Source: Polyangia bacterium
Lineage (GTDB): Bacteria; Myxococcota_A; Polyangia; Polyangiales; Sandaracinaceae
Direction: 5' to 3'
DNA: 34,583 nucleotides
Assembly (NCBI GenBank): GCA_030426845.1
Contig: JAUHXR010000059.1
Coordinates: forward strand, 1-34,583
Shown here piece by piece: positions 3,701 through 32,780 of the stretch. The position numbers and the translations under genes were made by a program. Under the pieces are notes generated by a model. It made no database searches and was not told the origin of the DNA. It was given only the letters and a program-made list of their open reading frames with translations. Every line of letters begins with the position of its first letter. Positions within the stretch are counted from its first letter, which is position 1.

Positions 3701-6586
3701 GGTCGCGCAGGGGTCGGCCACGCAGGCTCCGCTCGCCACGTCGCAGATCTCGCCCGCGCCGCAGCCGAGCCCGGTGCAGTCGTTGGCCACGCACCGCCCG
3801 AGCGGATCGCGCGGGTTGCAGACCGTGCCGCCCATGCAGACCACGCCGTCGCAGGAGAAGGTGCACTCGTTGTTGCGGCAGACGCAGCTCGCCACGTCGG
3901 CCTGGCCCGGGCCGCAGAGGACCTCGCCGTCGCGCTCACGCGTCTCGGTCGCGCAGGCCGCCTCGTCGCAGCGGTCGGCGACGCAGTAGCAGACGCCGTC
4001 CTCGACCCGCGGGGTCTTGCCGGTCGGGCACTCGAACCCGAACTCGGTGCGGTCGCAGGGCAGCGCGCACTGGCAGTCGAAGCACGTCGAGCCGGCCGGG
4101 CAGAGGTCGCCGGTGGTCGGCGCCTCGTCGGTCGCGCCGTCGCAGTCGTTGTCGGAGCAGTCGCAGGTCTCGCGCGCCGGCCCGACCTCGCCCTCGCAGA
4201 TCAGGCGGCCGCTGACGCAGCGCTCGGTGCCCGGCATGCAGAGGCCCTCGGCCGAGCCGCACGGACCGCCGAGGCCGAGCCCCTCGTCGATCGTTCCGTC
4301 GCAGTCGTTGTCGAGGCTGTCGCAGACCTCGGACTCGGGCCCGATCCCGCCCTGGCAGTCGAAGCCGCCGGTCGCCGGGTTGCACACGTTCACGCCGGGG
4401 CGGCACTCGCCGACGCTGCTCCCGCAGGGCGCGCCGACCGGGATGCCCTCGTCGATGCGCGTGTCGCAGTCGTTGTCCATCGCGTCGCAGGTCTCGGGCG
4501 CCCCCGCGACCTCGCCGACGCAGTCGAGCGCGCCGGTGACGGGGTTGCACGTCAGCACGCCTTGCATACACGGAGGGGTCGCGCTGCCGCAGGCCGCGCC
4601 GCCGCCGGGGTTGCCCTCGTCGGTCATGCCGTCGCAGTCGTTGTCGGCGGTGTCGCAGACCTCGGTCGTCGGGAAGGTCGCGCCGAGGCACTGGATGGCC
4701 CCCATGACGCAGGTCTGCGCGCCGAACGCGCACTGGCCGACGTCGGTGGGCGGGCCGCAGCTCGCGCCGCCGCCGGGGTTGCCCTCGTCGATCACGCCGT
4801 CGCAGTCGTCGTCGGCGTTGTTGCAGGTCTCGGGGCCGCCCGAGACGCCGCCGGTGCAGACGAGCGCGCCGCCGACGCACTGGAAGGTGCCGGGCGTGCA
4901 GGGGCCGACGCTCGTGCCGCAGCTCGCGCCGCCGCCGGGGTTGCCCTCGTCCATCGCGCCGTCGCAGTCGTCGTCGAGCCCGTTGCAGAGCTCGGTGCGC
5001 GGCGTGATCTCGCCGACGCAGGCGCCGAAGCTCCCCGACGTGCAGAGCTGGCGGCCGGGCACGCAGATGCCGCGGCCCATGTGGCCGGTGGTGTCGCAGG
5101 CGCGGGTGAAGCCGTCGACCGTCCCGTCGCAGTCGTCGTCGATCCCGTTGCAGGTCTCGGTCGTCGGGCCGGTCGCGCCGACGCACGCGCCGAAGGTGCC
5201 GGTGCCGCCGACCACGCAGGTCTCCGTGCCGGGGCTGCACGCACCGATGCTCGAGCCGCAGGGCCGGGTGACGCCCTCGTCGATCGTGCCGTCGCAGTCG
5301 TTGTCCGCGCCGTCGCAGGCCTCGGCCGTCGGGGTGCAGCCGGCGCAGATGTCGCCGCCCGCGCCGTCCTCGTCGATGATCCCGTCGCAGTCGTCGTCGG
5401 AGCGGTTGCACACCTCGGCCGGCGGCGCGCCGCAGGTCCCGCAGGCGTTGGTCGCGCCCTCGTCGGTCGCCCCGTCGCAGTCGTCGTCCGCGCCGTTGCA
5501 GGTCTCGGGCGGCGGCGCGCCGCAGCCGCCGCAGGCGTTGGTCACGCCCTCGTCGATCAGCCCGTCGCAGTCGTCGTCCGCGCCGTTGCAGACCTCGAAC
5601 ACGAGCGAGTCGGCGACGATGTCCGCGAGGCCGGCCGAGAGCTCGTCCTGGTTGGTCACGAAGAACGCGGTGTCGCCGCCCGGCGCGCCCGCGTCGGTCC
5701 CGCCCGCGGTGGCGATCGCGTTGAGGTCGGTGCGCAGCGTGCCCGTCGTGCCGAGGCCGACGACGTAGGTGCGGATGCCGGCCGCGAGCTGGGCTGCGGC
5801 CGCGGCGGGCGGGTTGCCGCCGCAGGACTCGCCGCCGTCGGCGATGAGGATGATCGCGTAATTGCGGCAGCTCCGCGGGTCGGCCGCGCGGATCGGCGCC
5901 ATGTAGCCGCCGGTCTCGGAGATCAGACCCGCGAGAGGGGTGTTGCCGTGCGCGCGGATCTCGCAGTCGGTCGTGCCGCTCGCGGTGTTGCAGAAGTTGC
6001 CCGTCGTGGTCGACGCGTTGAACGCGGTCTCCGAGTGGTCGATCCAGCTGAGGATCGCGTAGGTGTTGTCCAGCCCAGTGAAGGCGCCCATGTCGGGGAA
6101 GCCGACGAGCACGTCACCGCCGGCGCACGTGCCGGCGTAGTTCAGGCACGGCGAGGGGTTGCCGAGGTTCGCCGCGCACCAGGGGTCGTGGTAGCTCGCC
6201 CAGCAGTTCGATCCCGCGCTCGTCGTTTGATCGAACCGAGCGAAGCCCCAGTCGACGTAGCCGTAGGCGAGGAGCATCGAGCGGATCGACTCCTTGGCGA
6301 TGAAGATCCGCGACTCGTTGGGGAGGTTGTCGGCGTCGCCCTGATCGATGCCCGCGGTGCAGCCTACGCCGCAGTAGTGGCCGGCGGTCAGCGTGCAGTT
6401 GGCGAGGTTGCCGTCGCCGTAGGTCCACGTGCTGCCACTCCCGCCGAGGGTCCGGACCATCGAGCCCGAGGTGTCGAGCGAGATCATCAGGCGCGGGCTG
6501 AGCACCTCCTGCGCGCCGGCGGGCGCGGCGACGGAGGCGGCGGTGACCGCGACCAGGGCGGCGAAGAATTCGCGGCGACACGACAT
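719..6586 (-). CDS. Giant vWA/MopE-repeat protein fused in frame to a MopE-repeat/FGE-like lipoprotein
   Basis: A 1955-residue exported protein. Residues 1-25 are a signal peptide ending in AGA. A von Willebrand A domain follows, with the metal-site motif DTSGSM at D38-M43. From about residue 333 to 825 there are 11 copies of the MopE-type motif (for example CNGADDDCDGLIDEG; Pfam Cu-binding_MopE family), then Cys-rich EGF-like repeats to about 1070. A MYXO-CTERM-like tail follows: GGCSCR with Cys1095, a hydrophobic segment at about 1109-1124, and RRR at 1125-1127. The reading frame then continues into a second export signal (RRAALAAALLFTGGC, Cys1160), a DAG linker, nine more MopE motifs and, from about 1746, a formylglycine-generating-enzyme-like domain (GWRLCDAADW, DLSGNAREWT, RGGSY, GFRCC). 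The start is well supported: the ATG is preceded by GAGGA at 8 bases. The protein probably works at the cell surface, binding metal or ligand. It may really be two genes (see findings). Confidence 0.85.
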   Translation of the reverse strand: MSCRREFFAALVAVTAASVAAPAGAQEVLSPRLMISLDTSGSMVRTLGGSGSTWTYGDGNLANCTLTAGHYCGVGCTAGIDQGDADNLPNESRIFIAKESIRSMLLAYGYVDWGFARFDQTTSAGSNCWASYHDPWCAANLGNPSPCLNYAGTCAGGDVLVGFPDMGAFTGLDNTYAILSWIDHSETAFNASTTTGNFCNTASGTTDCEIRAHGNTPLAGLISETGGYMAPIRAADPRSCRNYAIILIADGGESCGGNPPAAAAAQLAAGIRTYVVGLGTTGTLRTDLNAIATAGGTDAGAPGGDTAFFVTNQDELSAGLADIVADSLVFEVCNGADDDCDGLIDEGVTNACGGCGAPPPETCNGADDDCDGATDEGATNACGTCGAPPAEVCNRSDDDCDGIIDEDGAGGDICAGCTPTAEACDGADNDCDGTIDEGVTRPCGSSIGACSPGTETCVVGGTGTFGACVGATGPTTETCNGIDDDCDGTVDGFTRACDTTGHMGRGICVPGRQLCTSGSFGACVGEITPRTELCNGLDDDCDGAMDEGNPGGGASCGTSVGPCTPGTFQCVGGALVCTGGVSGGPETCNNADDDCDGVIDEGNPGGGASCGPPTDVGQCAFGAQTCVMGAIQCLGATFPTTEVCDTADNDCDGMTDEGNPGGGAACGSATPPCMQGVLTCNPVTGALDCVGEVAGAPETCDAMDNDCDTRIDEGIPVGAPCGSSVGECRPGVNVCNPATGGFDCQGGIGPESEVCDSLDNDCDGTIDEGLGLGGPCGSAEGLCMPGTERCVSGRLICEGEVGPARETCDCSDNDCDGATDEAPTTGDLCPAGSTCFDCQCALPCDRTEFGFECPTGKTPRVEDGVCYCVADRCDEAACATETRERDGEVLCGPGQADVASCVCRNNECTFSCDGVVCMGGTVCNPRDPLGRCVANDCTGLGCGAGEICDVASGACVADPCATVTCGATEACRDGVCEATCAGVSCADGEVCRAGACEADLCADVSCTGQVCDPTSGECVDDLCDGVSCPVGQVCALATGNCVADPCVGLRCPDNTMCEAGECVDEVTPSEDAGPPPFDAGPAEDGRDRVLASGGCSCRVGPSPSAPTPWTPWALLALALGLVAWRRRGGLRRPFLRSSGAGGRLARRAALAAALLFTGGCDVDPFCLDCADPADAGPGEGGVDAGGVDAGGRDSGLPDGAVDGGPDAATDEVCNGADDDGDGSIDEDFDTQTDPEHCGGCGNLCAPLGAFPACNAGVCEIDRCDVGRFDLNGDPSDGCEYRCLVEEPDDVICDLRDNDCDGNIDEDVDLMGDPTNCGSCAFTCQFNNASETCVAGVCTLGACDAGWFDRDGDPANGCEYACTPASPATEACNLVDDDCDGMIDEGNPGGGASCGETRGVCTAGTETCVGGTLECVGGVRPGVEVCGPAGAPTDEDCDGTVDEGHPPRACGSSVGVCRQGNEQCVSGSVVCVGETPPAAAELCNGLDDDCDSNVDEGNPGGGAACGPTTGECAAGTLTCTSPALTCVGGTGPMLDVCDTRDNDCDGSVDEGFDLMNDARNCGGCGTTCSFANGFAACVAGSCQLVGCAPGFVNDNGLASDGCEYACSYTGAEICDGVDNDCDTSTTEASLTPPPSFCNPNGVCAGTVPTCTGAGGWVCNYTDPRYEAIETRCDSVDNDCDGVVNEPFPTLGNACGNGAGACRTTGTIVCNAAGTGTECNAPPALPPAANETCNNLDDDCDTRIDESIPLSAIPTVQFTGASGTVRMMQYEASRPDATAGSAGSTSTLACSAPNVLPWTGVTWTEARDACCALNPGGTCGATGWRLCDAADWQIACEAGSSCTWSYMSMCSATSVSTCNGEEHDSDTGTPGDQDALAPTADATFGACFADWGAAGVIYDLSGNAREWTNTQTISSSVHQIRGGSYNNVEPGRTCQFDFTAGDNSFAVPNTGFRCCFY
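3107..3304 (-). other. MYXO-CTERM-like anchor followed in frame by a lipoprotein signal
   Basis: This stretch encodes residues 1095-1160 of the giant ORF. The first half has the three parts of a MYXO-CTERM signal: a Cys-containing motif (GGCSCR), a membrane segment and an Arg cluster. Such signals are normally the last residues of a protein. The second half is a twin-Arg-flanked hydrophobic signal ending in Cys1160, a normal lipoprotein N-terminus. Between them I find no stop codon in any frame and no ATG, GTG or TTG in this frame. A run of seven C on the plus strand (about 3160-3167) lies in the junction and is a possible sequencing or slippage site. Confidence 0.6.
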
Positions 6587-9892: not shown

Positions 9893-11053
9893 ATGCGACG
9901 CCCCATCCTCTTCGCCCTCACCGCTCTGTCTGCCTGTCTCTTGGGGGTCGCCTGCGACGCGGGCGGCACGCCTCCGGGGCGCGACGCCGGGCCCGGCGCC
10001 GGCGGCGAGGGCGGCGAGGTGCAGTGCGGGGACGGGCGCGACAACGACGGAGACGGGCTCGTCGACTGCAACGACCCGGGCTGCACCGGCACCGGCGCGT
10101 GCGGCAACTTCGACGGCGGCCCGGGGCGCGACGCGGGCTTCAACAGCTGCGTCGGCACGCCCTACGAGGCCGAGGAGGCCTTTGCGCCGGTCGACATCAT
10201 CTGGGTCGTCGACACCTCCGGCTCGATGTCGAACGAGGCCGAGCGCGTGCAGGAGAACATGGCCAACTTCGCGTCGGCGATCGGCGCGGTCGGCATCGAC
10301 TGGCGCGTCGTGATGATCAGCACGCAGGACTACGTGAACGTCCCCGCGAGCCTCGCGATGGACCCGCGCTACCGCCTGATCGATCGCCCGGTGAACTCCA
10401 ACGAGCCGATGCAGGCGCTCCTCGACGAGTTCCCGCGCTACCAGGACTTCCTCCGCCGCACCGCGCTCACCCACTTCGTGGCCGTCACCGACGACGAGAG
10501 CAGCCTCGACTGGATGAGCTTCCGCTCGATGATGATGGCCAACCTCGGGCACGGCTTCATCTTCCACACCATCAGCTCCGAGGAGGTCCCGGGGGCGTTC
10601 AACGGCGCCTGCTCGAACGGCGGGGGCTTCCCGCCGGACGGCGCGGCCGAGGCCGGGATCCAGTACTGGCGCATGGCCCAGGCCACCGGCGGGCTGACGC
10701 TCTCGATCTGCACGCCCGCCTCGGAGTGGGTGCGCCTCTTCGACCTGCTGACGGCTGCGATCGCGGTGCCGATCATGATCCCGTGCGAGTTCGACCTGCC
10801 CGAGCCGCCGGCCGGGGAGATGCTCGACTTCGGGCGGGTCAACATCCGCTACACGCCCGACAGCGGCGACTCGCAGATCTACCCGTACGTGGGCAGCGAC
10901 GACGGCGCCGACTGCACCAACGGCGGCTGGTACTACGACGACCCGCGGGCCCCGACGCGGATCATCCTCTGCCCGAGCAGCTGCAACGAGGTCACGGGCA
11001 CCGGCGGCGGCCGGGTGGACGTCGAGCTCGGCTGCCAGACCTTCATCATCTGA
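9893..11053 (+). CDS. von Willebrand A domain lipoprotein
   Basis: A 386-residue predicted lipoprotein. The signal ends at Cys21 (LLGVAC). A short Gly/Asp-rich linker follows, then an Asp-rich motif related to the MopE repeat (DGRDNDGDGLVDCNDPGC, about residues 46-63). A vWA domain begins at about residue 100 with the metal-site motif DTSGSM (D107). Eight or so Cys in the C-terminal half suggest disulfides outside the cytoplasm. vWA domains bind proteins through a metal ion, so an adhesion or surface-complex role is likely; the partner is unknown. The ATG at 9893 was preferred over an upstream GTG at 9878 because GGAG lies 7 bases before it and the signal peptide starts there. The gene stands 80 bases after the TPR gene. 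Confidence 0.82.
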   Translation: MRRPILFALTALSACLLGVACDAGGTPPGRDAGPGAGGEGGEVQCGDGRDNDGDGLVDCNDPGCTGTGACGNFDGGPGRDAGFNSCVGTPYEAEEAFAPVDIIWVVDTSGSMSNEAERVQENMANFASAIGAVGIDWRVVMISTQDYVNVPASLAMDPRYRLIDRPVNSNEPMQALLDEFPRYQDFLRRTALTHFVAVTDDESSLDWMSFRSMMMANLGHGFIFHTISSEEVPGAFNGACSNGGGFPPDGAAEAGIQYWRMAQATGGLTLSICTPASEWVRLFDLLTAAIAVPIMIPCEFDLPEPPAGEMLDFGRVNIRYTPDSGDSQIYPYVGSDDGADCTNGGWYYDDPRAPTRIILCPSSCNEVTGTGGGRVDVELGCQTFII

Positions 11054-11064
11054 GCGGTCGACGG

Positions 11065-11571
11065 TTGGGCGCGCGCGGCTCGCGGCGGCGATCGCCCGCC
11101 AAGGAACCTTGCGATTGCACGAGCGGGCTCGCCTACGGTGAGTGCTGCCGGCCCTACCACGCGGGCGCGGAGGCCCCCGACCCGGTGCGGCTGATGCGGT
11201 CTCGCTTCGCGGCCTTCGCGCGGGGCGACGGGGCCTACCTCTGGCGGACCCTCCACCCCGATCACCCGCTGCGGGAGCGACCCGAGGCCGAGGTGGTGCG
11301 CGAGCTCTCGCGCGCGCGGCAGACGCTGCGCTACCGGGCCCTCGAGGTCCACGACCACGACGCGGCCGGCGACGCGGCGCGCGTCCTCTTCACCGCGACC
11401 GTCTTCGAGCGGGGCCGTGACCGATCGTTCAGCGAGCTGTCCCGCTTCGCCCGGGTCGAGGGCGGCTGGCGCTACCTCGACGGGCTCACCGCGCCCGGCG
11501 CGCCGCCGCCGGAGCTGCGCACCGTCGCGGCCTACGACGAGGCTGCGACTCGATCCGCGCAGGCGCGCTGA
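11065..11571 (+). CDS. YchJ-family protein with N-terminal Cys motif
   Basis: A 168-residue cytoplasmic protein of the YchJ (UPF0225) family, whose function is not established. The N-terminus carries the family's Cys cluster CDCTSGLAYGECC (SEC-C-like zinc motif), followed by PYHAG and RLMRSRFAAFARGD. The C-terminal part resembles an NTF2-like fold (RTLHPDH, VLFTATVFERG, SFSELSRFARVEGGWRYLDG). Length and motif order match the family. The only in-frame start between the preceding stop and the Cys motif is TTG at 11065, 11 bases after the vWA lipoprotein stop; no clear ribosome binding site is visible, so the start is tentative. Nothing in the neighbours suggests a specific role. Confidence 0.78.
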   Translation: MGARGSRRRSPAKEPCDCTSGLAYGECCRPYHAGAEAPDPVRLMRSRFAAFARGDGAYLWRTLHPDHPLRERPEAEVVRELSRARQTLRYRALEVHDHDAAGDAARVLFTATVFERGRDRSFSELSRFARVEGGWRYLDGLTAPGAPPPELRTVAAYDEAATRSAQAR

Positions 11572-19065: not shown

Positions 19066-20976
19066 ATGATCCTGGTCCTGGTGTGCGCCTTCGCGCTGGC
19101 CCTCATCGGAGGCCCGCTGGCGGCGAGCCTGATGGGCCACCCCCTCGGCGCGGCCGCGACGATCGCGTCGACCGCGGTCGGAGGCCTGCTGCTGCTGGGC
19201 GTGGGCGCGCTGGTCACCTACCAGCGCCTCTACAAGAAGACCCGCGCGAACGAGGCCTTCGTTCGCACGGGCCGCGGCGGTGTCTCGGTGATCCGGGACG
19301 GCGGCGCCTTCGTCGTGCCGTTCCTCCACGAGCTGATCGAGGTCACCCTCACGACCCTCAAGCTGCGCGTCACGCGCAAGAACGAGGACGCGCTCATCAC
19401 GCAAGACAAGCTGCGGGCGGACATCGAAGCGGAGTTCTTCGTCCGGGTGCAGCCCGACGAGGAGAGCATCCTGCAGGCGTCCCGCTCGCTCGGGGACCGC
19501 ATGGGGGAGCCCGAGGCGGTCAAGGAGCTCGTCGAGGACAAGCTCGTCAGCGCGCTGCGCACCGCGGCCGCGGGCAAGACCCTCGAGCAGCTCAACAGCG
19601 AGCGCGACGAGTTCCTGACCGAGGTGATGAAGCTCGTCGGCGACGACCTGCGCGCGAACGGCCTGATCCTCGAGACGGTCACGATCTCGCGGCTCGATCA
19701 GACCGACGACAAGTTCCTCAAGGCGGAGAACATCTTCGACGCCCAGGGTCGCCGCAAGATCGCGGAGATCACGCAGCTCAACCTGACCGAGCGCAACCGC
19801 CTCGTCCGCGAGGGCGAGCGCGCGCGCAAGCGTGAGGACGTCCAGACCAAGAAGGACGTGCTCGAGCTCGAGCAGAGCGAGGCGGAGGCCGAGGCGCGCA
19901 TGCGGGCCGAGGTCGCCAAGATCCAGGCGGACACCGAGCGTGAGGCGACGGTCGAGCAGATCGTCGCGGCCCGCAAGGTGGAGCTCGCGACGGTGGAGAA
20001 GACCAAGGCCCTCGAGCTCGCCGCGCGCGAGCAGGAGGAGGCGGTCGAGGTCGCCGAGCGGGCCAAGCAGCAGAAGATCGCGCGGGCCGAGCAGGAGCGC
20101 GCGGCGGCCGAGGCGGAGCTCGCCGACGCCGAGGCGGAGCGCGAGCTCGCGCGCCAGCGGGTCGAGACGGTCCGCGTCACGCAGGAGGCCGAGCGGCTCA
20201 AGGCCAAGGGGGTGATCGACGCCCAGGCCGACGCCGAGCGCGCCTTCGTCTCGGAGCAGCGCAGGGCCGACGCCGAGGCCTACTCGGTGCAGAAGCAGGC
20301 CGAGGCGCAGATGCTCAGCGCCGACGCCGAGTCGACCGCGATCCGCAAGAAGGCCGAGGCTGAGGCGGAGCGCGAGCGGCTGCGGGCCACCGGCATGAAG
20401 GCCACCGCGATGGTCCCCGTCGAGGTGGAGATGGCCAAGGTCGCGCTCGATCGCGATCGCATCGAGACGGTGGTCAAGCCGGAGCTCGAGGCGCGTGAGA
20501 AGCACGGCCAGGTCGCGCAGGAGTTCGAGCTGTCGAAGCTGCGCATCGCGGCGGAGAAGGAGGTGCGGGTCGCGCTCGCCGAGGCCCAGGCTCAGCTCTT
20601 CACCAAGATGGAGGCGAACCTCTACGGGACGCCGGAGGACGTGACGAAGATCCTCGGCAGCCTCACCCAGGGCCAGAGCCTGGCCAAGGGGATCGGCGGC
20701 TTCCTCGGCGCGGCCGACGGCGCCACCCTCGCGGGGCTCGGCGCGCTCACCGACGCGCTCGTGTCCCGTCTCGGCGGCGGCGCGGAGCCGGCCCTGCCGG
20801 CCGCGGCGTCGCCCGAGGTCGAGGCCGGCCGCGCGCTCGAGGCGCAGGTCGACGGCGAAGGGGAGGAGGCCGAGGTCGAGGGTGAGCTCGTGGATGGTCT
20901 CGAGGAGGAGCCGGAAGACGGCGCCCCCCTGGACCCGCCCGAGGCCGACGAGGACACCCCCGTCGCGGCCGAGTGA
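19066..20976 (+). CDS. Flotillin (SPFH/YqiK-type membrane scaffold)
   Basis: A 636-residue flotillin-like protein. Two N-terminal hydrophobic segments (about 2-20 and 32-52) anchor it. An SPFH/PHB domain follows (about 55-210; [43 protein letters not shown] and NSERDEFL regions). A long Glu/Ala/Arg-rich coiled coil runs from about 230 to 480, then a flotillin C-terminal region, ending in an acidic tail (about 590-636). Flotillins oligomerise to organise membrane microdomains and act with NfeD/YqiJ proteins, encoded here just upstream. The start is good: an AG-rich Shine-Dalgarno (AGAGGAAGAG) precedes the ATG. A strong terminator follows. Confidence 0.92.
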
Positions 20977-20980
20977 TCCG

Positions 20981-21014
20981 AGGCCCCCGATCGCGTCCGC
21001 GGTCGGGGGCCTTT
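20981..21014 (+). terminator. Strong intrinsic terminator after the flotillin gene
   Basis: AGGCCCCCGATCGCG (20981-20995) pairs with CGCGGTCGGGGGCCT (20998-21012) with one G-T wobble, followed by TTT. It starts 4 bases after the flotillin stop. The next gene's GTG is 27 bases beyond. Confidence 0.8.
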
Positions 21015-21040
21015 CGCGTTCCGTCGTCTATAGTCCCCGC

Positions 21041-22345
21041 GTGGATGAGCTGACCTGGGCCCTCGAGGAGGTGGTGGGCGCGGCCCTCGTGCTCGACGAG
21101 GAGCTGCGCGTGGTGGCGCACACGCCGTCGGCGGCGGAGGCCCTCGGCGTCGCTCCCCCCGTCGGGGTGAGCGCGCCGCGGCTGCTCTGCGGGCACGGCG
21201 AGGAGCGCCCGGTCGCCGAGGCGCTCGCGGCCGGCCGGGCGGTGACCGCCGAGGTGCTCCGGCCGACGGAGGCCGGCTCCAACCGCGCGGTCCACGTCCG
21301 GGCGAGCCCGTTCGACGCCGGCGGCAAGCGCGCTTGGCTCGTGGTGTTCGACGCCTTCCGCGAGCCCGAGGGCGCGGCCGAGCTCGGCATCGTCACGCGC
21401 GACCCGGCGATGCAGCAGCTGCTGCGGGACGTGCGCAAGGTCGCGCGGAGCAACGCGAGCGTGCTGGTCCGCGGCGAGACGGGCAGCGGCAAGGAGCTGA
21501 TCGCGCGCGCGATCCACACGGCGTCGGACCGCCGGGACGGCCCGTTCCGCGCGATCAACTGCGCGGCCCTGCCGCCGAACCTCCTCGAGAGCGAGCTCTT
21601 CGGCCACGCGCGCGGCGCGTTCACCGGCGCGGTCGCGGACGCCCCTGGGCACTTCCGGCTCGCCGACGGCGGGACGCTCTTCCTCGACGAGGTGGCGGAG
21701 CTCCCGCTCGAGGTGCAAGCCAAGCTGCTCCGCGTGCTCCAGGACAAGAAGGTCATCCCGGTGGGCGGTCGCGAGCCGCTCGGGGTCGACGTGCGCGTGG
21801 TGTCCGCGACCCACCGTGCGCTCCGGACCGAGGTCGAGGCGGGGCGTTTCCGCGCGGATCTGCTGTACCGGCTGCGCGTGATCCCGCTCTACCTGCCGCC
21901 GCTCCGTGAGCGGCCCGGCGACGTCGAGGCGCTCGCCTGGCACTTCCTCGAGGAGCACGAGGCGACGCGCGCGGTCCGCCGTATCACCGACGGAGCGCTG
22001 AACGCGCTCACCGTCTACGACTGGCCGGGCAACGTGCGCGAGCTCCAGAACACCATCGAGTACGCGGTGGTGATGGGCTCGGGCCCGGTGCTCACCGAGG
22101 CGGACCTGCCGCCCGAGGTGCGCGGCGAGGAGCCGGGCGCGAGCAAGGTCTCGGCGCCGGCGCAGCCCGTCAATCCGTCGCTCCCGCCCGAGGCGCGCCG
22201 CCTGGTGAACGCGCTCGAGCGCTCGGGCGGCCACATGGGCCGGGCCGCGAAGTCGCTCGGGATGAGCCGCACCACCCTGTGGCGGAAGCTCAAGCGGCAC
22301 GGGCTCCACCCCGACGACGACACGGAGGCCGGCGCGGAGGGGTGA
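21041..22345 (+). CDS. PAS-like sigma-54-dependent transcriptional activator
   Basis: A 434-residue enhancer-binding protein. The first 115 residues look like a PAS sensor domain ([39 protein letters not shown]). The AAA+ domain has Walker A GETGSGKE (from G145), an intact GAFTGA loop (from G192) and Walker [13 protein letters not shown]. The C-terminal Fis-type helix-turn-helix is [26 protein letters not shown]. It has no receiver domain, so it probably senses a small molecule or redox state directly. GTG 21041 was chosen because it starts the PAS-like region and lies just after the flotillin terminator. It converges on the persulfide dioxygenase gene and could regulate the sulfur genes beyond, which is a guess from position. 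Confidence 0.87.
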
Positions 22346-22416: not shown

Positions 22417-23304
22417 CTACTTGGGCTCGCCGACCTCGTCCGCCGGGTGCAGCAGGTTGAGCGGGATGTTGAGGTAGCGGTGCCCGTTCGCGCGCGGCTC
22501 GGGCAGCTTGCCCGCGTTGACGTTGAGCTGGACGCTCGGGAGCAGGAGCCGCGGCGCCGCGAGGGTCGCGTCCCGCTCGGTCCGGAAGCGCACGAAGTCC
22601 TCGCGGCTGGTGTTGCCCTTGAGCTGGGGGTTGTTCGCCTTGGACGCGCCGATCGTGGTCTCCCACTTCACCTCGCGGCCGCCGGGCTGGTAGTCGTGAC
22701 CGACGAACACGCGCGTGTCGTCGGGGAGCGCGTAGAGCTTCTGGATCGAGACGTAGAGGTCCTCCGCGCTGCCCTTCGGGAAGTCGCACCGGCCGGTGCC
22801 GTAGTCGTCCATGAAGAGCGCGTCGCCCGTGAAGATCGCGTCGTCGATCTTGTAGGTGACGCAGGCGGGGGTGTGCCCGGGCGTCGCGATCACCTCGATC
22901 TTCATCGCGCCGACCTCGAGGGTCTCGCCCTCGGTGAGCAGGCGGTCGAACTGTGAGCCGTCGGTGGCGAAGTCGTCGCCGTAGTCGAAGAGGGGCTTGA
23001 AGGTCTCCTGCACCGCCGTGATCTGCGCGCCGATGACGATCTTGGCGTCGAAGCGGCGCTTGAGGAGCTGGGAGGCGCTGACGTGGTCGGCGTGGGCGTG
23101 GGTCTCGAGCACGTAGCGGAGGTTGAGCCCTGCCTCGCGGACGAACGCGGTGACCTCGTCGGCGGATTCCGTCCAGGTGCGGGACGCGGCCGGGTCGTAG
23201 TCGAGGACCGGGTCGATGACCACCGCGTCCTTCGACCCGGGGTCCCACACGACGTAGGTCAGCGTGTAGGTGCGAGCGTCGTAGAAGGCTTTGATGTCGG
23301 CCAT
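22417..23304 (-). CDS. MBL-fold persulfide-dioxygenase-type hydrolase
   Basis: A 295-residue metallo-beta-lactamase-fold protein of the ETHE1/Blh type. It carries the metal motif HAHADH (H69-H74), then [18 protein letters not shown] and the family motif GTGRCDF (GCGRTDF in many relatives). Later come [12 protein letters not shown] and a C-terminal block ([19 protein letters not shown]) seen in Blh-like proteins. Family members oxidise glutathione persulfide to sulfite with one iron; that activity is inferred here. In several proteobacteria Blh genes sit with SulP and YeeE/YedE transporters, as here. The ATG has AAGGAG at 7 bases. Its first 46 bases overlap the 3' end of the SulP gene, so the two are probably co-transcribed. 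Confidence 0.85.
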
Positions 23305-25055
23305 GGTGAGTCTCCTTGCGTATCGCTGTCATTGCGCGCGCCGTGCCAGTCCGCCTGCGGGTCGATCTCTTCGTCCCCTGCAACCGGCTGCAACGCGTCG
23401 CGCTGAGCGGCCTCGGCCGCCCCGTGCACATCGTGGAACATGCGGCCCTCGCCGAGGGCCACGTCGAGCCCGCCGCGCTTCATGACGTCGCGGACCGGGC
23501 CCTTCACGCCCGCCAGGTAGAGCCGGACGTCCGCGGCCTCGAGCCGCTGGTGGATGTCGTGGAGCATCGTCTCGGCCGACGCGTCCAGGTCGTTGATGCC
23601 GCTCGCGTCGAGGATCAGCGCGTGGACGTCGTCCGCCTTGAGGAGCAGACGGTCGACCTGGTCGCGGAAGAACGACGCGTTGGCGAAATAGAAGCTCGCG
23701 TCGAAGCGCCAGATGACGATCCCGTCGATCGGCGTGGCCTCCGGGAAGCGCTCGAGGTTGCGGTAGGCGGTGGTGCCGGGGAGCCGGCCGAGCACCGCGT
23801 GGTGCGGCTTGGTGCTGCGGCGGACGAAGAGCGCGAGCGACGCGATGACGCCGACCACGATGCCCTCCTCGATGCCGACGAACAGGGTCACCACGAAGGT
23901 GAGCAGGAGCAGGCCCGCGTCGCTGCGCTTGACCTTCCACAGGTGGCGCAGCTCCTGGACGTCGATGAGGCCGAAGACCGCGCTCATCACGATCGCGGCG
24001 AGCACCGCCTTGGGCAGGAAGTAGAACAGCGGCGTCAGGAACAGCAGGCTGATCGCGATGACGATCGCGGTGATCGCGCTCGCGAGGCCGGTCTTGGCGC
24101 CCGCCTGGGCGTTGACCGCGGTCCGGCTGAAGCCGCCCGTGACCGGGTAGGCCCCGAAGAAGAAGCCGATGATGTTGGAGGTCCCGAGCGCGACGAGCTC
24201 CTGGTTGGCGTCGACCTCGTAGCGGTTCTTGCGCGCGAAGGCCTTGGCGACGCTGATCGACTCCATGAAGCCGACGAGCGAGATCGCGAGCGCGGTGGGG
24301 AGGAGGCCCCCGAGCTGGGACAGCTCGAAGCTCGGGACGCTCGGCGCGGGGAAGCCGGCGGGGACCGAGCCAACGATCGCGACGCCGGCCTCGTGCAGGT
24401 CGAAGGCCCAGGTCGCCAGGGTGGCTCCGCCGACCACCACGAGCGCGCCCGGGAAGCGCTTGTTCCAACGCTTCAGCGCCAAAAGGGTGACGATCGAGAC
24501 GACGCCGATCGTCAACGTGATGGGCTTGGTCTCGCCGAGCGCGCCGACCGCGTTGATGACCAGATCGTGGAGCCGCGGGGCCCGCGCGATGTTCGCGCCC
24601 AGCAGGTGCTTGAGCTGGCTCAGCCCGATGATGATCGCGGCGGCCGAGGTGAACCCGCTGATGACCGGGTGGCTCAGGAGGGTCACGAGGGAGCCCATCT
24701 TGAGGAGGCCCATCGCGAGCTGCATCGCGCCGACCATCCCCGCGAGGATCACCGCGAGGATGACGAACTCCGTGGATCCGGGCTCCGCGATACCCCCGAC
24801 GCCGGTCGCCACCAGGAGGCTGACCATCGCGACCGGCCCCACCGCGAGCTGGCGCGAGGTGCCGAGGAAGGCGTAGGCGAGCAGCGGCAGGACCGACGCG
24901 TAGAGGCCGACGATCGGCGGCAGGCCGGCGAGCATCGCGTAGGCCATCCCCTGCGGGATCAGCATCACGGCGACGGTAAGGCCGGCGGTCACGTCGCCGG
25001 GGAGGTCGCGGCGATCGTAGCCGCGGATCCATTCGAGAGAGGGTAGCCAGCGCAT
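23259..25055 (-). CDS. SulP-family anion transporter with STAS domain
   Basis: A 598-residue SulP/SLC26-type permease. The N-terminal signature region is clear ([34 protein letters not shown]), followed by about a dozen membrane segments to about residue 405. A cytoplasmic STAS domain lies at about 430-560 ([37 protein letters not shown]). The family moves sulfate, sulfite, bicarbonate or other anions; clustering with a persulfide dioxygenase suggests sulfite or sulfate export or import. I chose the ATG at 25055 (MRWLPSLEW, the usual family N-terminus); GTG at 25067 is possible. The last 15 codons overlap the next gene and look like its shadow, so the natural C-terminus may once have been shorter. 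Confidence 0.9.
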
Positions 25056-25070
25056 GTCGCTGGTCACGGG

Positions 25071-27641: not shown

Positions 27642-28775
27642 TCAGAACGCGGCTTGCAGCTGCAGGCGCGCGCGGGCGCTGTCGCGCGCCTGCTCGTCGG
27701 CGCGCTCGCTCCGCATCCAGCCGAGGTCGAGCTGCACGATCAGGTCGCGCCCGAGGATCGGGGCCTGCGCGGCCAGCGTCAGCTCGTGCTGGCCGGTCAG
27801 GGGCGAGCCCGCGTCCTCGCGCAGGGCGTCGAAGACCGCGACGCGCGCGTAGCGGGCGGTGAGGTCGAGGTGGGTGTCCACGCGGTAGCTGAGCTCGACC
27901 AGGCCGCCGGCCGCGCCGGGCGCGTAGGTCTCGGTCAGGGTCGGCGCGAGGCCGAGGTAGGCGACGACCGTCAGCGCGAAGCCTTCGAGCTTGAACGTGG
28001 CCTCGGGGGCGACCCGGAAGGTGAAGTCGCGGCCGCGCACCGGGGCGCTGTCCCACGCGAAGCTCAGCGCGACCGCGTGGCGGAGCCCGCCGCCCGCGCG
28101 GTCGATCGTCTCGGTCGCGCGGACGCCCTCCGAGTGGTGCGCGATCCGACCGACGAGCTCGGCGTGCATCTCGTCCGGGGCGGAGCCGTCGATGAAGCTC
28201 GAGGGGTTCGGGGCCGAGCCGCCGTAGAGCCGGGGGAGCTCGCGCGCGAACGAAGAGCGCCGGTTCTGGCCGGAGAACACGCCGACCGCGTACTGCAAGC
28301 CCTCCTGCGTCTGGCCGTAGGCCATCGCGCCGAGCTGTCGCTCGCCGCCGAACCAGCGGTTGCTGAGCGGCCAGTCGACCGCCATCTCGGTGAGCGAGCG
28401 CTGCCAGTAGTCGGTGAACGGGACCTTGAGCTGGCCGGCGCGCAGCCGCAGGCCGTCCATCACCGCGAGGTCGACCCAGAGGTCGATCAGCTCGGGCGCC
28501 TCCGGGTTGGCCTCGAGGTGGAGGCGGGCCTGGAAGTCTCCGCCGAGCAGCCGGCCGTGCAGGATCGGTCGCACCCGCCGCAGGCGCGGGGTGACCTCGA
28601 CGTCCCCGCCCGCCGGGGCGCTGGCCGCGAGCTGCAGCTGCGCGATCCCGGCGATGCGGAGCGAGCTCTCCTCGTCACCGACCACGACCTCCGGCACGCC
28701 CTCGGGGAGCTGGGCGTAGACCACCTCCGGGGCGAAGACGGCGAGGGCGAGGGCGATCGAGGAGAGGCGGTTCAT
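27642..28775 (-). CDS. Outer-membrane porin, phosphate-selective O/P-like
   Basis: A 377-residue outer-membrane beta-barrel protein. A signal peptide (residues 1-21, ending VYA-Q) is followed by alternating amphipathic strands. These include features of the OprO/OprP-like family: LHGRLLGGDFQARLHLEAN, LRLRAGQLKVPF, LSNRWFGGERQLGAM, FTFRVAPEATFKLEGF. It ends in Phe, as barrel proteins usually do for insertion. The ATG overlaps the TGA of the upstream rhodanese-fusion gene (TGATG), so the two are translationally coupled. That suggests the porin passes an anion (phosphate, sulfate or thiosulfate) linked to that enzyme's work; the exact substrate is not clear from sequence. Confidence 0.83.
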   Translation of the reverse strand: MNRLSSIALALAVFAPEVVYAQLPEGVPEVVVGDEESSLRIAGIAQLQLAASAPAGGDVEVTPRLRRVRPILHGRLLGGDFQARLHLEANPEAPELIDLWVDLAVMDGLRLRAGQLKVPFTDYWQRSLTEMAVDWPLSNRWFGGERQLGAMAYGQTQEGLQYAVGVFSGQNRRSSFARELPRLYGGSAPNPSSFIDGSAPDEMHAELVGRIAHHSEGVRATETIDRAGGGLRHAVALSFAWDSAPVRGRDFTFRVAPEATFKLEGFALTVVAYLGLAPTLTETYAPGAAGGLVELSYRVDTHLDLTARYARVAVFDALREDAGSPLTGQHELTLAAQAPILGRDLIVQLDLGWMRSERADEQARDSARARLQLQAAF

Positions 28776-30151
28776 CAGTCGGGGTCCCGGGGGCCCTCGA
28801 CGCGCACGGCGTCGGGGCTGACATAGGCGTCGTAGACGGGGAGGCGGGCCGCGAGGTGCCCGAGGGTGGCGTGGAGCTGCGCGTCGCCGAGCTCCTCGAG
28901 CGCCTCGAGGAAGGCGTCGCGTCGCTCCGGGTGCTCGCGCAGCCAGGGGTCCTCCTCGAGGAGGAAGCTCGCGCCCTGCGCGCGAACCCAGGCGCTGACC
29001 TGTGGGTGGCTCACGAAAACCTCGTGGTCGCCGATGTGAGGCACCACCGTGGGGATGCGTGAGTACGGGTGCACGTCGTGGTCGAGGTGCACGGTGAGCA
29101 CCCCCGACTCCTCGTGCCCGCCCTCGAGGACCACGAGGTCGATCGGCGCGCCCTGCCACAGGCGGCGGAAGGCGGCGCGCAGGAGGCTGCGCGCCAGCTC
29201 GGTGCGGACGCCGTACTCCTCCGGGTTCTGCAGCGTCAGCCGGAGGTGGCCGCAGCCGACGTGCGCCGGGTCGACGAGCGCGGCGAGGAGCGGCTCCTCG
29301 AGCTCGGCCGGCGGGTGCCGCACGAGCTCGCGCGGGTCGTAGGGGGCGAACCGCGGGTCGCTGTCGGCCAGCTCCTCGAGCGCGTGCTCGTCGGTGTGCA
29401 TGTAGAAGCGGCCGAAGGCCTCGAGGCGCGCGTCGAGCGCGGCCCGCACGCTCGCCTCGTCGAGGGGCTCGTCGCGGACCCGCTCCAGCGCGGCCAACGC
29501 GAGGAGCAGCTCGCCCGCGTCTCCGCCCATCGTGCCGACGATCGGGTGCGCGTCCCGACCGTCCACGCAGCTCTGGGTGGCCTGCATGAGGAGCGAGGCG
29601 GCGCGGACCCAGCGGATCTGCGTGGGATCGCCGAGGTGGTCCACGATGTCGCCGCGGACGAGCCTGTCGTCCTCGGTCCGCGCGTCCGAGGCGCGGTCCT
29701 TCTCGGCGACCGGCAGCGGCCCGCGGCGGACCGGGTGACCGAGCGCCTCCCAGACGAGGATCCCGCCGGTCATCGACGCGACCCGCGTGAAGCCCATGTC
29801 CTCGAGGTCACGCGTCGCGCGCGCCGAGCGGCGACCCGAGCGACAGACGAGCACGACCGGCTCGTGCGGGTCCCATCGCTCGGCGACCTCGCCGAGCCGC
29901 CGCAGCGGTACGTGCTCCCCGAAGGGAAGGCGATGCACGACCAGCTCGCGCGTGTCGCGCACGTCCACGATCCGAACGGCGTCGCGGTGCTCGAGGACCC
30001 AGGTGGCGTCGACCTCCGGCACCCCGCCGGGGGAGCGCTCGAAGCGGACGACGGTCTCGGCGAGGGCGGCGGTCATCGGTCCATCTCCTGACTCGGCCGC
30101 GCATCCCCCGACGAGGAGGAGGAGGGGAAGGACGAGATGTCGACCGGGCAT
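28775..30151 (-). CDS. Lipoprotein fusion of rhodanese and a carbonic-anhydrase-like domain
   Basis: A 458-residue protein. The N-terminus looks like a lipoprotein signal ([16 protein letters not shown], Cys17), which would place it in the periplasm. A rhodanese domain (about 32-135) has the persulfide-forming loop CRSGRRS (Cys103) and the end motif [15 protein letters not shown]. The remaining part (about 165-458) is not a standard rhodanese partner. It has CVDGRD (C195), MHTDEH (H252) and HVGCGH (H297, C300), together with [18 protein letters not shown]. This Cys-Asp-Arg...His...Gly-Cys-Gly order resembles the metal site of cadmium/zeta-type (and more loosely beta-type) carbonic anhydrases. 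That assignment is my inference. ATG 30151 has AAGG upstream; a cytoplasmic start at 30076 is possible. It overlaps the porin and diverges from YeeE/YedE genes. Confidence 0.8.
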
Positions 30152-30312: not shown

Positions 30313-30744
30313 ATGGAGCATTTCACCCCCTTCGCCTCTGCAATCGGCGGCGCACTCATCGGATTGAGCGCGACCGTCTTGCTGCTCTTCAACGGACGAA
30401 TCGCCGGCATCAGCGGCATCTTCGCGGGGGCGCTGTTCCCGGGAGGTGAGCGCGAGCCTTGGCGATGGGCCTTCGTCGCCGGCCTGCTCCTCGGCGGGCT
30501 CGGGATGGCCCTGCTCTTCCCGTCGATGTTCTCGGTGACCTACGACCGGAGCATCTGGATGGTGGCGATCGCCGGCCTCCTCGTGGGTGTCGGCGTGCGC
30601 ATGGGCAGCGGCTGCACGAGCGGTCACGGCGTCTGCGGGCTGAGCCGCTTCTCTCCGCGCTCGCTCGTCGCGACCCTCACGTTCATGGCGACCGGCGCGA
30701 TCACCGTCTTCCTGGTGCGCGTCTTCCTCGGGGGTGCGTCGTGA
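30313..30744 (+). CDS. YeeE/YedE half-transporter, first subunit
   Basis: A 143-residue membrane protein with about four helices. It carries the YeeE/YedE signature [16 protein letters not shown] (C101 and C108). In YeeE-type thiosulfate transporters conserved Cys residues relay the substrate through the membrane. It corresponds to one half of the full-length transporter; split pairs of about this size are common and are often called PmpA/PmpB. The ATG at 30313 starts just before the first helix. Its TGA overlaps the GTG of the second half (GTGA), so both are made together. The neighbours (rhodanese fusion, persulfide dioxygenase, SulP) support transport of thiosulfate or another reduced sulfur compound. 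Confidence 0.88.
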
Positions 30745-31151
30745 AGACCATCGTCTCGGCCTTCGCCGCGGGCCTCATCTTCGCGGTCGGCCTCGCGGTC
30801 GGCGGCATGACCCAGCCCTCGAAGGTGGTCGGGTTCCTCGACTTCTTTGGCGCCTGGGACCCGAGCCTCGCCTTCGTGATGGGCGGCGCGGTCACCGTCC
30901 ACATGCTGCTCTACCGCTTCGTCACCAAGCGCTCGAGCCCCCTCTACGACGACGCGTTCCACATCCCGACGCGGCGCGACTTCAACCTCCCGCTCATCGC
31001 CGGCTCGGCGCTGTTCGGGATCGGCTGGGGCCTCGGCGGGTTCTGCCCGGGGCCGGGCCTCGTGTCGGTGCCCTCCTTCGGGATCGAGGCGCTCGTCTTC
31101 GTGGGCGCGATGGTCACGGGGATGCTCGGCTACAAGCTCGCCCGCGGCTGA
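30741..31151 (+). CDS. YeeE/YedE half-transporter, second subunit (DUF6691-like)
   Basis: A 136-residue membrane protein with about four helices. It begins with the typical [31 protein letters not shown] region. The second conserved block, [15 protein letters not shown], holds the single Cys (C102) that completes the Cys set of the split transporter. The GTG start overlaps the stop of the first half by four bases. The stop lies only 9 bases from the stop of the convergent Na/phosphate transporter, leaving no room for a separate terminator. Confidence 0.88.
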
Positions 31152-31160
31152 GCGGCTCGC

Positions 31161-32780
31161 CTACGTGAGGTCTTCGGCCGCGGCCATCAGGTCCTCCGCG
31201 CCGCGCACGAGGTGCTTGGCGCCGCGCCTCGCCTCGGCGAGCCAGCGCTGAGCGGCGACCACCGCGCGGAGGTCGTGCGCCTCGGTCGGCGGCGCGAGGA
31301 TCGCGGTGCGCCGCTGGTCGTAGCGCTCCTGGAGGCGCCCGAACGCGCGCTCGCTCTCGGCGAGCGAGAACTCCTTGGCCTCCACGTTCGAGGCGGAGAC
31401 CACCGCCCTCAGCGCGTCGCCCAGCGGGCCGTCCAGGCCCAGGGCGGGGAGCGCGGCCTCGTCCAGCTCGGCGCGGAGCTCGACCAGTAAACGTGCTTGC
31501 TCCACCGCGGTGTCGTAGTGACGCCGCGCGCGGAGGAGCCGCGCGAGCGCGTCGGACACGGCGGCGCTGAACGGCTGGCGAGAGAGCGTCGACGCGAAGC
31601 CGGTGATGGAGTCACCCAGCGCCGCGTAGGCCTGGGCCAGCCGCTCGACCGAGGCCGCTGCGGGCGCGTCGCCCTCCCCCGGCGCGATCGCGGCCGCGAG
31701 GAGCTCGCCGGCGTGGCGCCCGAGCCGGCCCGTCTCGCGCGCGATCGCCTCGACCCCGACGTCGGGGACCGCGAGGACGCTCCGGTCGAGGAAGCGCGGG
31801 TGCGCCTTCTCCTCCTCGGTGCTCACCCAGCGCGCGGCGAGGGCTCGCTCGAGGCGGCCGGCGAGCGGCCAGATCAGGATGACGCCGAGGAGGTTGAACA
31901 CGGTGTGAAACGCCGCGAGCGCGGGCAGCGCCCCCGCGCCGTGGCCGAGCGCGCGGCCGAGCGCGAGCTCCACGACGCCGAGCAGGCCGGGGAGGAGCGC
32001 GAGCGCGACCGCAGCCGCCAGGAGGTTGAACACGACGTGGCCGACCGCCGCGCGCCGGGCCGCGGGGGTCGCGCCGACGACCGCGAGGAGCGCGGTGGAG
32101 GTCGTCCCGAGGTTGGCCCCGATGACCATCGCGCCGGCGCCCGTGAGGTCGATCGCGCCGGTCGCGGCCGCGCTGAGGGTCACCGCGATGGCCGCGCTCG
32201 ACGACTGCATCGCCACCGTCAGCGCGACGCCGACCAGCAGCAGCGCGGCGACCCCGAGCGGGCCGCCTCCCCACCCGGCCAGGTCGACCCCCTGGCTGAG
32301 CGTCCCGAACGCGTCGCCGAGGATCGACAGGCCGAGGAAGAACAGGCCGAGCCCCGCCGCCGCCTCGCCGAGCGCCCCGATCCGCCGCCGCTTGTCGAGG
32401 GCCCGCGCCAGCGCGCCTGCGCCGATGAGGGGCAGGGCGTAGGCCTCGACGTCGAGGTCCACCCCGGTCAGCGCGACCAGCCATCCCGTCATCGATGTGC
32501 CGACGTTGCTGCCGAAGACCACCCACAGCGCCTCGCGCAGCCCGAGCAGCCCCGCGTTGACGAAGCCGAGGGTCGCGACGGTGACCGCGCTCGAGCTCTG
32601 GACGAGCGCGGTGAGGCCGATCCCGGTGAGCAGCGCGCGCGGTCGGCTCGCGGTCGCCCGGCGGAGCGCCCGCCCGAGCATGCGGCCAGCCGCGACCTTG
32701 AGCCCCTCGGTCAACAGGCGCACCCCGAGCAGGAACAGGCCGACCCCGCCGATCGCCGCGCCGAGGGTGCTCGCGTCCAT
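31161..32780 (-). CDS. Na/phosphate cotransporter with PhoU-like tail
   Basis: A 539-residue membrane protein of the Na/Pi cotransporter II-related family (NptA/YjbB-like). The two inverted repeats each carry the QSSS motif: QSSSAVT from Q61 and QSSSAAI from Q192. GSNVGTS and GANLGTTST follow as expected. About nine membrane helices end near residue 310. The C-terminal 200 residues are a helical, soluble PhoU-like domain (HAGELLAAAIAP, AYAALGDSITG, ESERAFGRLQERYDQRR), which probably links transport to phosphate status. The ATG starts at the first helix. It diverges from the aminotransferase gene across 72 bases that show no clear promoter. Confidence 0.88.
   Translation of the reverse strand: MDASTLGAAIGGVGLFLLGVRLLTEGLKVAAGRMLGRALRRATASRPRALLTGIGLTALVQSSSAVTVATLGFVNAGLLGLREALWVVFGSNVGTSMTGWLVALTGVDLDVEAYALPLIGAGALARALDKRRRIGALGEAAAGLGLFFLGLSILGDAFGTLSQGVDLAGWGGGPLGVAALLLVGVALTVAMQSSSAAIAVTLSAAATGAIDLTGAGAMVIGANLGTTSTALLAVVGATPAARRAAVGHVVFNLLAAAVALALLPGLLGVVELALGRALGHGAGALPALAAFHTVFNLLGVILIWPLAGRLERALAARWVSTEEEKAHPRFLDRSVLAVPDVGVEAIARETGRLGRHAGELLAAAIAPGEGDAPAAASVERLAQAYAALGDSITGFASTLSRQPFSAAVSDALARLLRARRHYDTAVEQARLLVELRAELDEAALPALGLDGPLGDALRAVVSASNVEAKEFSLAESERAFGRLQERYDQRRTAILAPPTEAHDLRAVVAAQRWLAEARRGAKHLVRGAEDLMAAAEDLT

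Follow-up and report, generated by a model that had tools for sequence, protein, structure and literature searches.

A predicted rhodanese lipoprotein from a Polyangia bacterium carries a divergent zeta-class carbonic anhydrase-like domain

The window, a stretch of 34,583 nucleotides from a Polyangia bacterium, encoded a predicted lipoprotein in which a rhodanese domain preceded a C-terminal domain resembling zeta-class carbonic anhydrases (zeta-CA-like; Table 1). The first-pass annotation had proposed a lipoprotein joining a rhodanese to a metal domain, and the reading frame proved real, opening with a lipobox pattern that marks the product as a likely bacterial lipoprotein and continuing into a rhodanese match above the Pfam cut-off. 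Homologue comparison recovered proteins with identical domain architecture, and the residues on which the proposal turned (C103, C195, H252 and C300) were confirmed letter by letter in the translation. Cys103 (codon 29843-29845) lay within an intact active-site loop, CRSGRRS, identified by loop alignment, and the rhodanese is predicted to be of the active type. In its extent and Cys-bearing loop it resembled single-domain rhodaneses of the GlpE/PspE type and the BpPRF rhodanese, but differed from them in forming part of a lipoprotein ahead of a zeta-CA-like domain. The C-terminal domain had no match in Pfam, NCBIfam or PDB sequence searches.

The TGA stop of this gene shared one base with the ATG of the porin-like gene that follows it (TGATG). 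The Blh-type persulfide dioxygenase fell below the cut-off of NF040641, which is a two-domain model. FisR/BigR sulfide-detoxification operons of Acinetobacter comprise SQR, PDO, TauE and YeeE/YedE (PMC7315123); the window locus shared with them the persulfide dioxygenase, the YeeE/YedE pair and a sigma-54 activator, and added the SulP permease, the porin and the zeta-CA-like rhodanese lipoprotein, carbonic anhydrase being unmentioned in the Acinetobacter paper. Elsewhere in the window, a Na/Pi-cotransporter-family gene (31161-32780) lay near the porin-like and zeta-CA-like genes, and the very large protein encoded at positions 719-6586 had numerous putative copper-binding repeats of the MopE type and ended in an FGE-sulfatase-like domain.

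Table 1. Positions of the lipoprotein gene, its domains and motifs, and neighbouring genes in the window
Feature	Positions	Strand	Basis
Whole gene, predicted lipoprotein with rhodanese and zeta-CA-like domain	28775..30151	-	458 aa plus stop; translation
Lipoprotein signal peptide, lipobox Cys17 (LVGGC)	30101..30151	-	Sequence pattern
Rhodanese domain, residues 49-136	29744..30007	-	Pfam PF00581 E 1.6e-9, above cut-off; loop alignment
Zeta-CA-like domain, residues 165-458	28778..29659	-	AlphaFold model, CDCA1 structural match, hhalign
CVDGR, proposed ligand Cys195 with Asp197/Arg199 pair	29555..29569	-	Invariant; same letters in bacterial and diatom CDCA
HTDE, proposed ligand His252, then Thr253, Asp254, Glu255	29387..29398	-	H252 and D254 invariant; aligns with HGD of CDCA
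Insertion of ~40 residues (about 257-295) between His252 and Cys300	29267..29383	-	hhalign gap; short relatives
GCGH, proposed ligand Cys300	29246..29257	-	Invariant; aligns with MGCG/LGCG of CDCA
GGHEE, second-lobe motif with His346, Glu348	29108..29122	-	H346 and E348 invariant
Porin_O_P-like outer-membrane protein, next gene	27642..28776	-	Pfam below cut-off: E 0.018 here, 0.0009 in L123
YeeE/YedE-type sulfur transporter half, divergent	30313..30744	+	Pfam Sulf_transp E 2e-8
DUF6691, second YeeE/YedE-type half	30735..31151	+	Pfam PF20398 E 4e-41
SulP anion permease with STAS domain	23259..25067	-	TIGR00815 over cut-off
Blh-type persulfide dioxygenase	22417..23304	-	NF040641 dioxygenase part E 2e-107; PDB matches include ETHE1
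Sigma-54 activator, FisR-like by context	20882..22345	+	Sigma54_activat, PAS_4, HTH_8

The C-terminal domain was modelled with AlphaFold from 19 aligned homologues, with a pLDDT of 91.3 and a pTM of 0.89. Foldseek ranked chains of the diatom enzyme CDCA1 first, at E 0.06-0.15, and VIA-align superposed the three CDCA1 repeats on the model at Z 10.4-11.7 (177-182 residues, rmsd 3.2-3.6); all other entries reached Z 3.2 at most, leaving CDCA1 as the only entries above Z 5. The predicted fold of residues 165-458, which had been suggested as a check on the proposed relationship to carbonic anhydrases, thus upheld that relationship for the zeta class (CDCA); the part that pointed to beta carbonic anhydrases proper did not stand. 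Beta-CA chains appeared in Foldseek at E above 2 only. The domain shares with the beta-CA family (PF00484, which includes COS and CS2 hydrolases) the C-x-D-x-R motif, a metal site of the Cys2His type and the Asp/Arg pair, but it gave no PF00484 sequence match and lacks the conserved H-x-x-C pair that supplies the second ligands there. Residue 297, the histidine of that pair in the window protein, was H, F, N, Y, S or G among relatives, which rules out beta-style ligation by C195/H297/C300 and leaves C195, H252 and C300 as the proposed ligands. A weak Pfam match to DinB_2 (E 0.06-0.27) was set aside because the fold matched CDCA. LCIB/theta-CA, a further candidate, was absent among the fold-search matches listed, an absence that does not in itself exclude it.

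The motifs CVDGRD, MHTDEH and HVGCGH lay where the first-pass annotation had placed them, with spacings of 57 (C195-H252) and 48 (H252-C300) residues, and its Cys-His-Cys site in zeta order gained support from the fold, the motif register and the profile match described below. C195, D197, G198, R199, H252, D254, G299, C300, G301, H302, H346 and E348 were invariant in 22 aligned sequences, window included, and the equivalent of GGHEE, G-x-H-x-E, was likewise invariant in the CDCA alignment. The predicted ligands follow the CVDGR, HGD, GCG order of the zeta class, and from homology to CDCA1 we infer that they cluster in space. Likeness to CDCA1 (PF18484) therefore extends over the fold (Z up to 11.7) and the order C-V-D-G-R, H-x-D, G-C-G, G-x-H-x-E. 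Unlike CDCA1, the window protein is bacterial, a predicted lipoprotein, fused to a rhodanese and unmatched by PF18484, with a ~40-residue insertion between the His and the second Cys, a GCGH motif where the zeta class has GCGF/Y, and a longer C-terminus. This insertion was absent from CDCA and from relatives in small (~1 Mb) genomes (short forms L118 and L066/L062); since the latter, with HTDDHAEQAQSGCG and HTDNHALAKHEPTGCG, have near-CDCA spacing, the long second spacing is explained as an insertion. Neither it nor the invariant H302 is a CDCA feature, and both may alter the substrate.

Genuine PF18484 proteins also occur in bacteria: 12 of the 379 genomes of the window's phylum (L067-L078) encoded proteins above the Pfam CDCA cut-off, ~210 aa long and close to the diatom enzyme, and their profile matched diatom CDCA1 at E 8e-77. 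Their motifs KCVDGR, SVHGD, MGCGFFKLW and LEGxHxE have counterparts in the window family as SCVDGR, FYxHTD, HxGCGHLRL and LxGGHxE. When 39 members of the window family were compared with this bacterial CDCA family by hhalign, all four motifs lined up in register and the match reached E 6.5e-8, against a best E of 0.0088 among 30 column shuffles and 0.27 for the reversed alignment; an earlier comparison with 19 sequences had been weak (E 0.022) and became strong once more, and shorter-spaced, relatives were added. We are therefore nearly certain that the domain is homologous to zeta carbonic anhydrases. As PF18484 gave no match at E 10 to the window protein, and none in the window genome either, the family is filed as a divergent bacterial zeta-class branch, sister to the PF18484 members; one small-genome relative reached the Pfam model at E 0.0022, below its cut-off. 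Bacterial members of PF18484 have been known before; any novelty would lie in the present branch. Among open-licence papers we found none joining CDCA, or carbonic anhydrase, with a rhodanese and none describing the branch or the fusion, in line with the first-pass annotation, which had known of no such fusion.

Of the genomes sampled, 34 of 379 in the window's phylum and 6 of 287 in the small-genome phylum encoded the zeta-CA-like domain; some of the small-genome cases were partial matches, and L119, the copy furthest diverged among them, had altered motifs. Plasmid and viral collections yielded no relatives. A 350-residue stand-alone member from the small-genome phylum (L117) carried a twin-arginine-like signal, SRRDLLKYG, pointing outside the cytoplasm. 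A maximum-likelihood tree resolved three clades. Clade I (98/98), which holds the window protein, consisted mostly of predicted lipoproteins with a Cys-rhodanese, lipobox candidates again being found by pattern, and included two members without a rhodanese; clade III comprised stand-alone zeta-CA-like proteins. In clade II the rhodanese Cys was replaced by Ser in 14 members; the few that kept Cys included some whose position in the tree was unresolved, and the clade showed no convincing lipobox. Metal-site residues were retained in all three clades.

Sulfur genes, such as the transporters and persulfide dioxygenase that the first-pass annotation had noted beside the window gene, recurred near distant relatives. 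SulP, a persulfide dioxygenase or YeeE lay near the gene at 10 of 16 loci of clades I and III, window included, and at none of 17 loci in clade II and the unresolved rows (Fisher p 9e-5, computed without correction for relatedness, with L101 and L126 closely related and some of the contigs in clade II short). The link to sulfur genes is real but clade-specific. SulP copies 54-74% identical to the window's adjoined zeta-CA-like genes in five genomes (L087, L111, L112, L114 and L123); among stand-alone members (L111, L112, L114, L123) SulP was the neighbour that recurred, and in the last three of these it was the closest partner. Porin-like homologues stood directly downstream in L087, L088 and L089, and a homologue of the sigma-54 activator occurred in L090, L101 and L126. 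In L110 and L111, where the zeta-CA-like member lacks a rhodanese, stand-alone rhodanese genes lay nearby, so that the fusion joins partners that are co-encoded as separate neighbours elsewhere; the L110 neighbourhood also held a YeeE/thiosulfate-transporter-like gene and a molybdopterin oxidoreductase pair. In L093, the gene for the zeta-CA/rhodanese lipoprotein was followed ~1.2 kb downstream by a signal-bearing beta-carbonic-anhydrase-like gene (10867-11535).

In zeta-class enzymes water is activated for attack on CO2 by a metal that two Cys and one His coordinate; a single CDCA repeat, itself two-lobed, mimics a dimer of beta-CA and carries the metal ligands in just one lobe (PMC4413181, PMC11085502). 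CDCA1 itself is an established carbonic anhydrase, active with Cd or Zn (PMC4413181). The conserved residues of the window domain would allow the same metal and water chemistry, and the domain is probably a metal-dependent hydratase or hydrolase. C195, H252 and C300 would hold Zn or Cd, and the Asp197/Arg199 pair would position a metal-bound hydroxide for attack on a CO2-like substrate. Loss of catalysis, leaving the domain as a metal-binding scaffold or sensor, would fit the divergence from CDCA (no Pfam CDCA match at E 10), the insertion beside the site and the mixed architectures, but invariance across lineages extends to all three ligands, to the Asp/Arg pair and to G-x-H-x-E, and we consider such a role unlikely.

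The functional proposal of the first-pass annotation was that one enzyme frees sulfur from a C-S compound at the metal site and hands it directly to Cys103. Fusion of the two domains, the CRSGRRS loop kept intact by the window's clade and the pairing of separate rhodanese and zeta-CA-like genes in L110 and L111 all speak for such a hand-over. Yet the metal domain also occurs alone, and its site was kept in nearly all members with a Ser-rhodanese (14 of the 17 that belong to clade II or are of unresolved placement) or with no rhodanese (11 members), including a sister clade that lacks sulfur genes. Hydrolysis of COS or CS2 moreover releases HS-, not sulfane sulfur, and HS- alone is unable to persulfidate a rhodanese Cys. 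With the rhodanese Cys dispensable across the family and HS- as the product, direct transfer is the least likely of the readings considered, and we regard it as very improbable.

The reading we prefer, with a probability of about 0.5, is that of an envelope protein whose lipid anchor would tether a putative zeta-type carbonic anhydrase. Periplasmic interconversion of CO2 and bicarbonate may then serve the SulP anion exchanger encoded nearby, by supplying bicarbonate or buffering protons. Sulfide-derived persulfide would meanwhile be converted to sulfite and thiosulfate by the persulfide dioxygenase together with the rhodanese, the latter of which would be an accessory drawn from the same gene cassette, outside the metal site. 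CO2/bicarbonate is favoured by the SulP linkage and by the constancy of the site in members without sulfur genes, and the chances that CO2 is the putative main substrate are about even. Against it, the sulfur-chemistry neighbourhood fits COS or CS2 equally, and the window SulP fell far below the cut-off of the BicA model and was nearer to sulfate permeases than to BicA.

A serious alternative, which we hold to be possible though less probable, is an envelope COS or CS2 hydrolase whose H2S is oxidised by the persulfide dioxygenase/rhodanese cassette, with SulP, YeeE and the porin moving sulfur anions. It draws on the sulfide-oxidation context, since the sulfur cassette adjoins the gene in distant clades (the L110 set included) and a Cys-rhodanese occurs mainly where that cassette is present. 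Zeta carbonic anhydrases are also said, in the title of a 2021 paper by Alterio that is cited in PMC13144422, to have CS2 hydrolase activity. COS hydrolases are known within the beta-CA family (PMC8209446, PMC5745022). On the other side, some stand-alone members (L114, L123) adjoin SulP alone and clade II retains identical metal-site residues without sulfur genes. No residue tells CO2 from COS or CS2 here, and we know of no sequence signature that separates COS/CS2 hydrolases from CO2 hydratases. That an envelope zeta-type enzyme of this kind, feeding sulfide to the persulfide dioxygenase and rhodanese, represents a phylum-wide, unrecognised family of sulfur-gas hydrolases is a more tentative proposition still.

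The window genome (G000, a 95% complete assembly) gave no match to PF00484 (beta-CA), PF00194 (alpha-CA) or PF18484 (CDCA), which speaks for the CO2 reading. Among 57 genomes checked, a beta-CA was missing in 10 and the zeta-like gene present in 22, and only the window genome and G053 combined the two; as most carriers also have a beta-CA, the zeta-like gene is not a general replacement for a missing one.

To our knowledge, zeta carbonic anhydrases have been thought nearly confined to diatoms. The family described here adds a second bacterial zeta-class branch, one that is invisible to sequence searches and missed by surveys that use existing models. Fusion or linkage to a rhodanese is frequent in this branch, and some of its clades are also linked to sulfide-oxidation genes. 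With its relatives placed among such genes, the window lipoprotein points to a putative link between CO2-type chemistry and sulfur metabolism. The family makes bacterial zeta-type action on CO2, COS or CS2 directly testable, and the members with short spacing are relevant to how the diatom enzyme arose.
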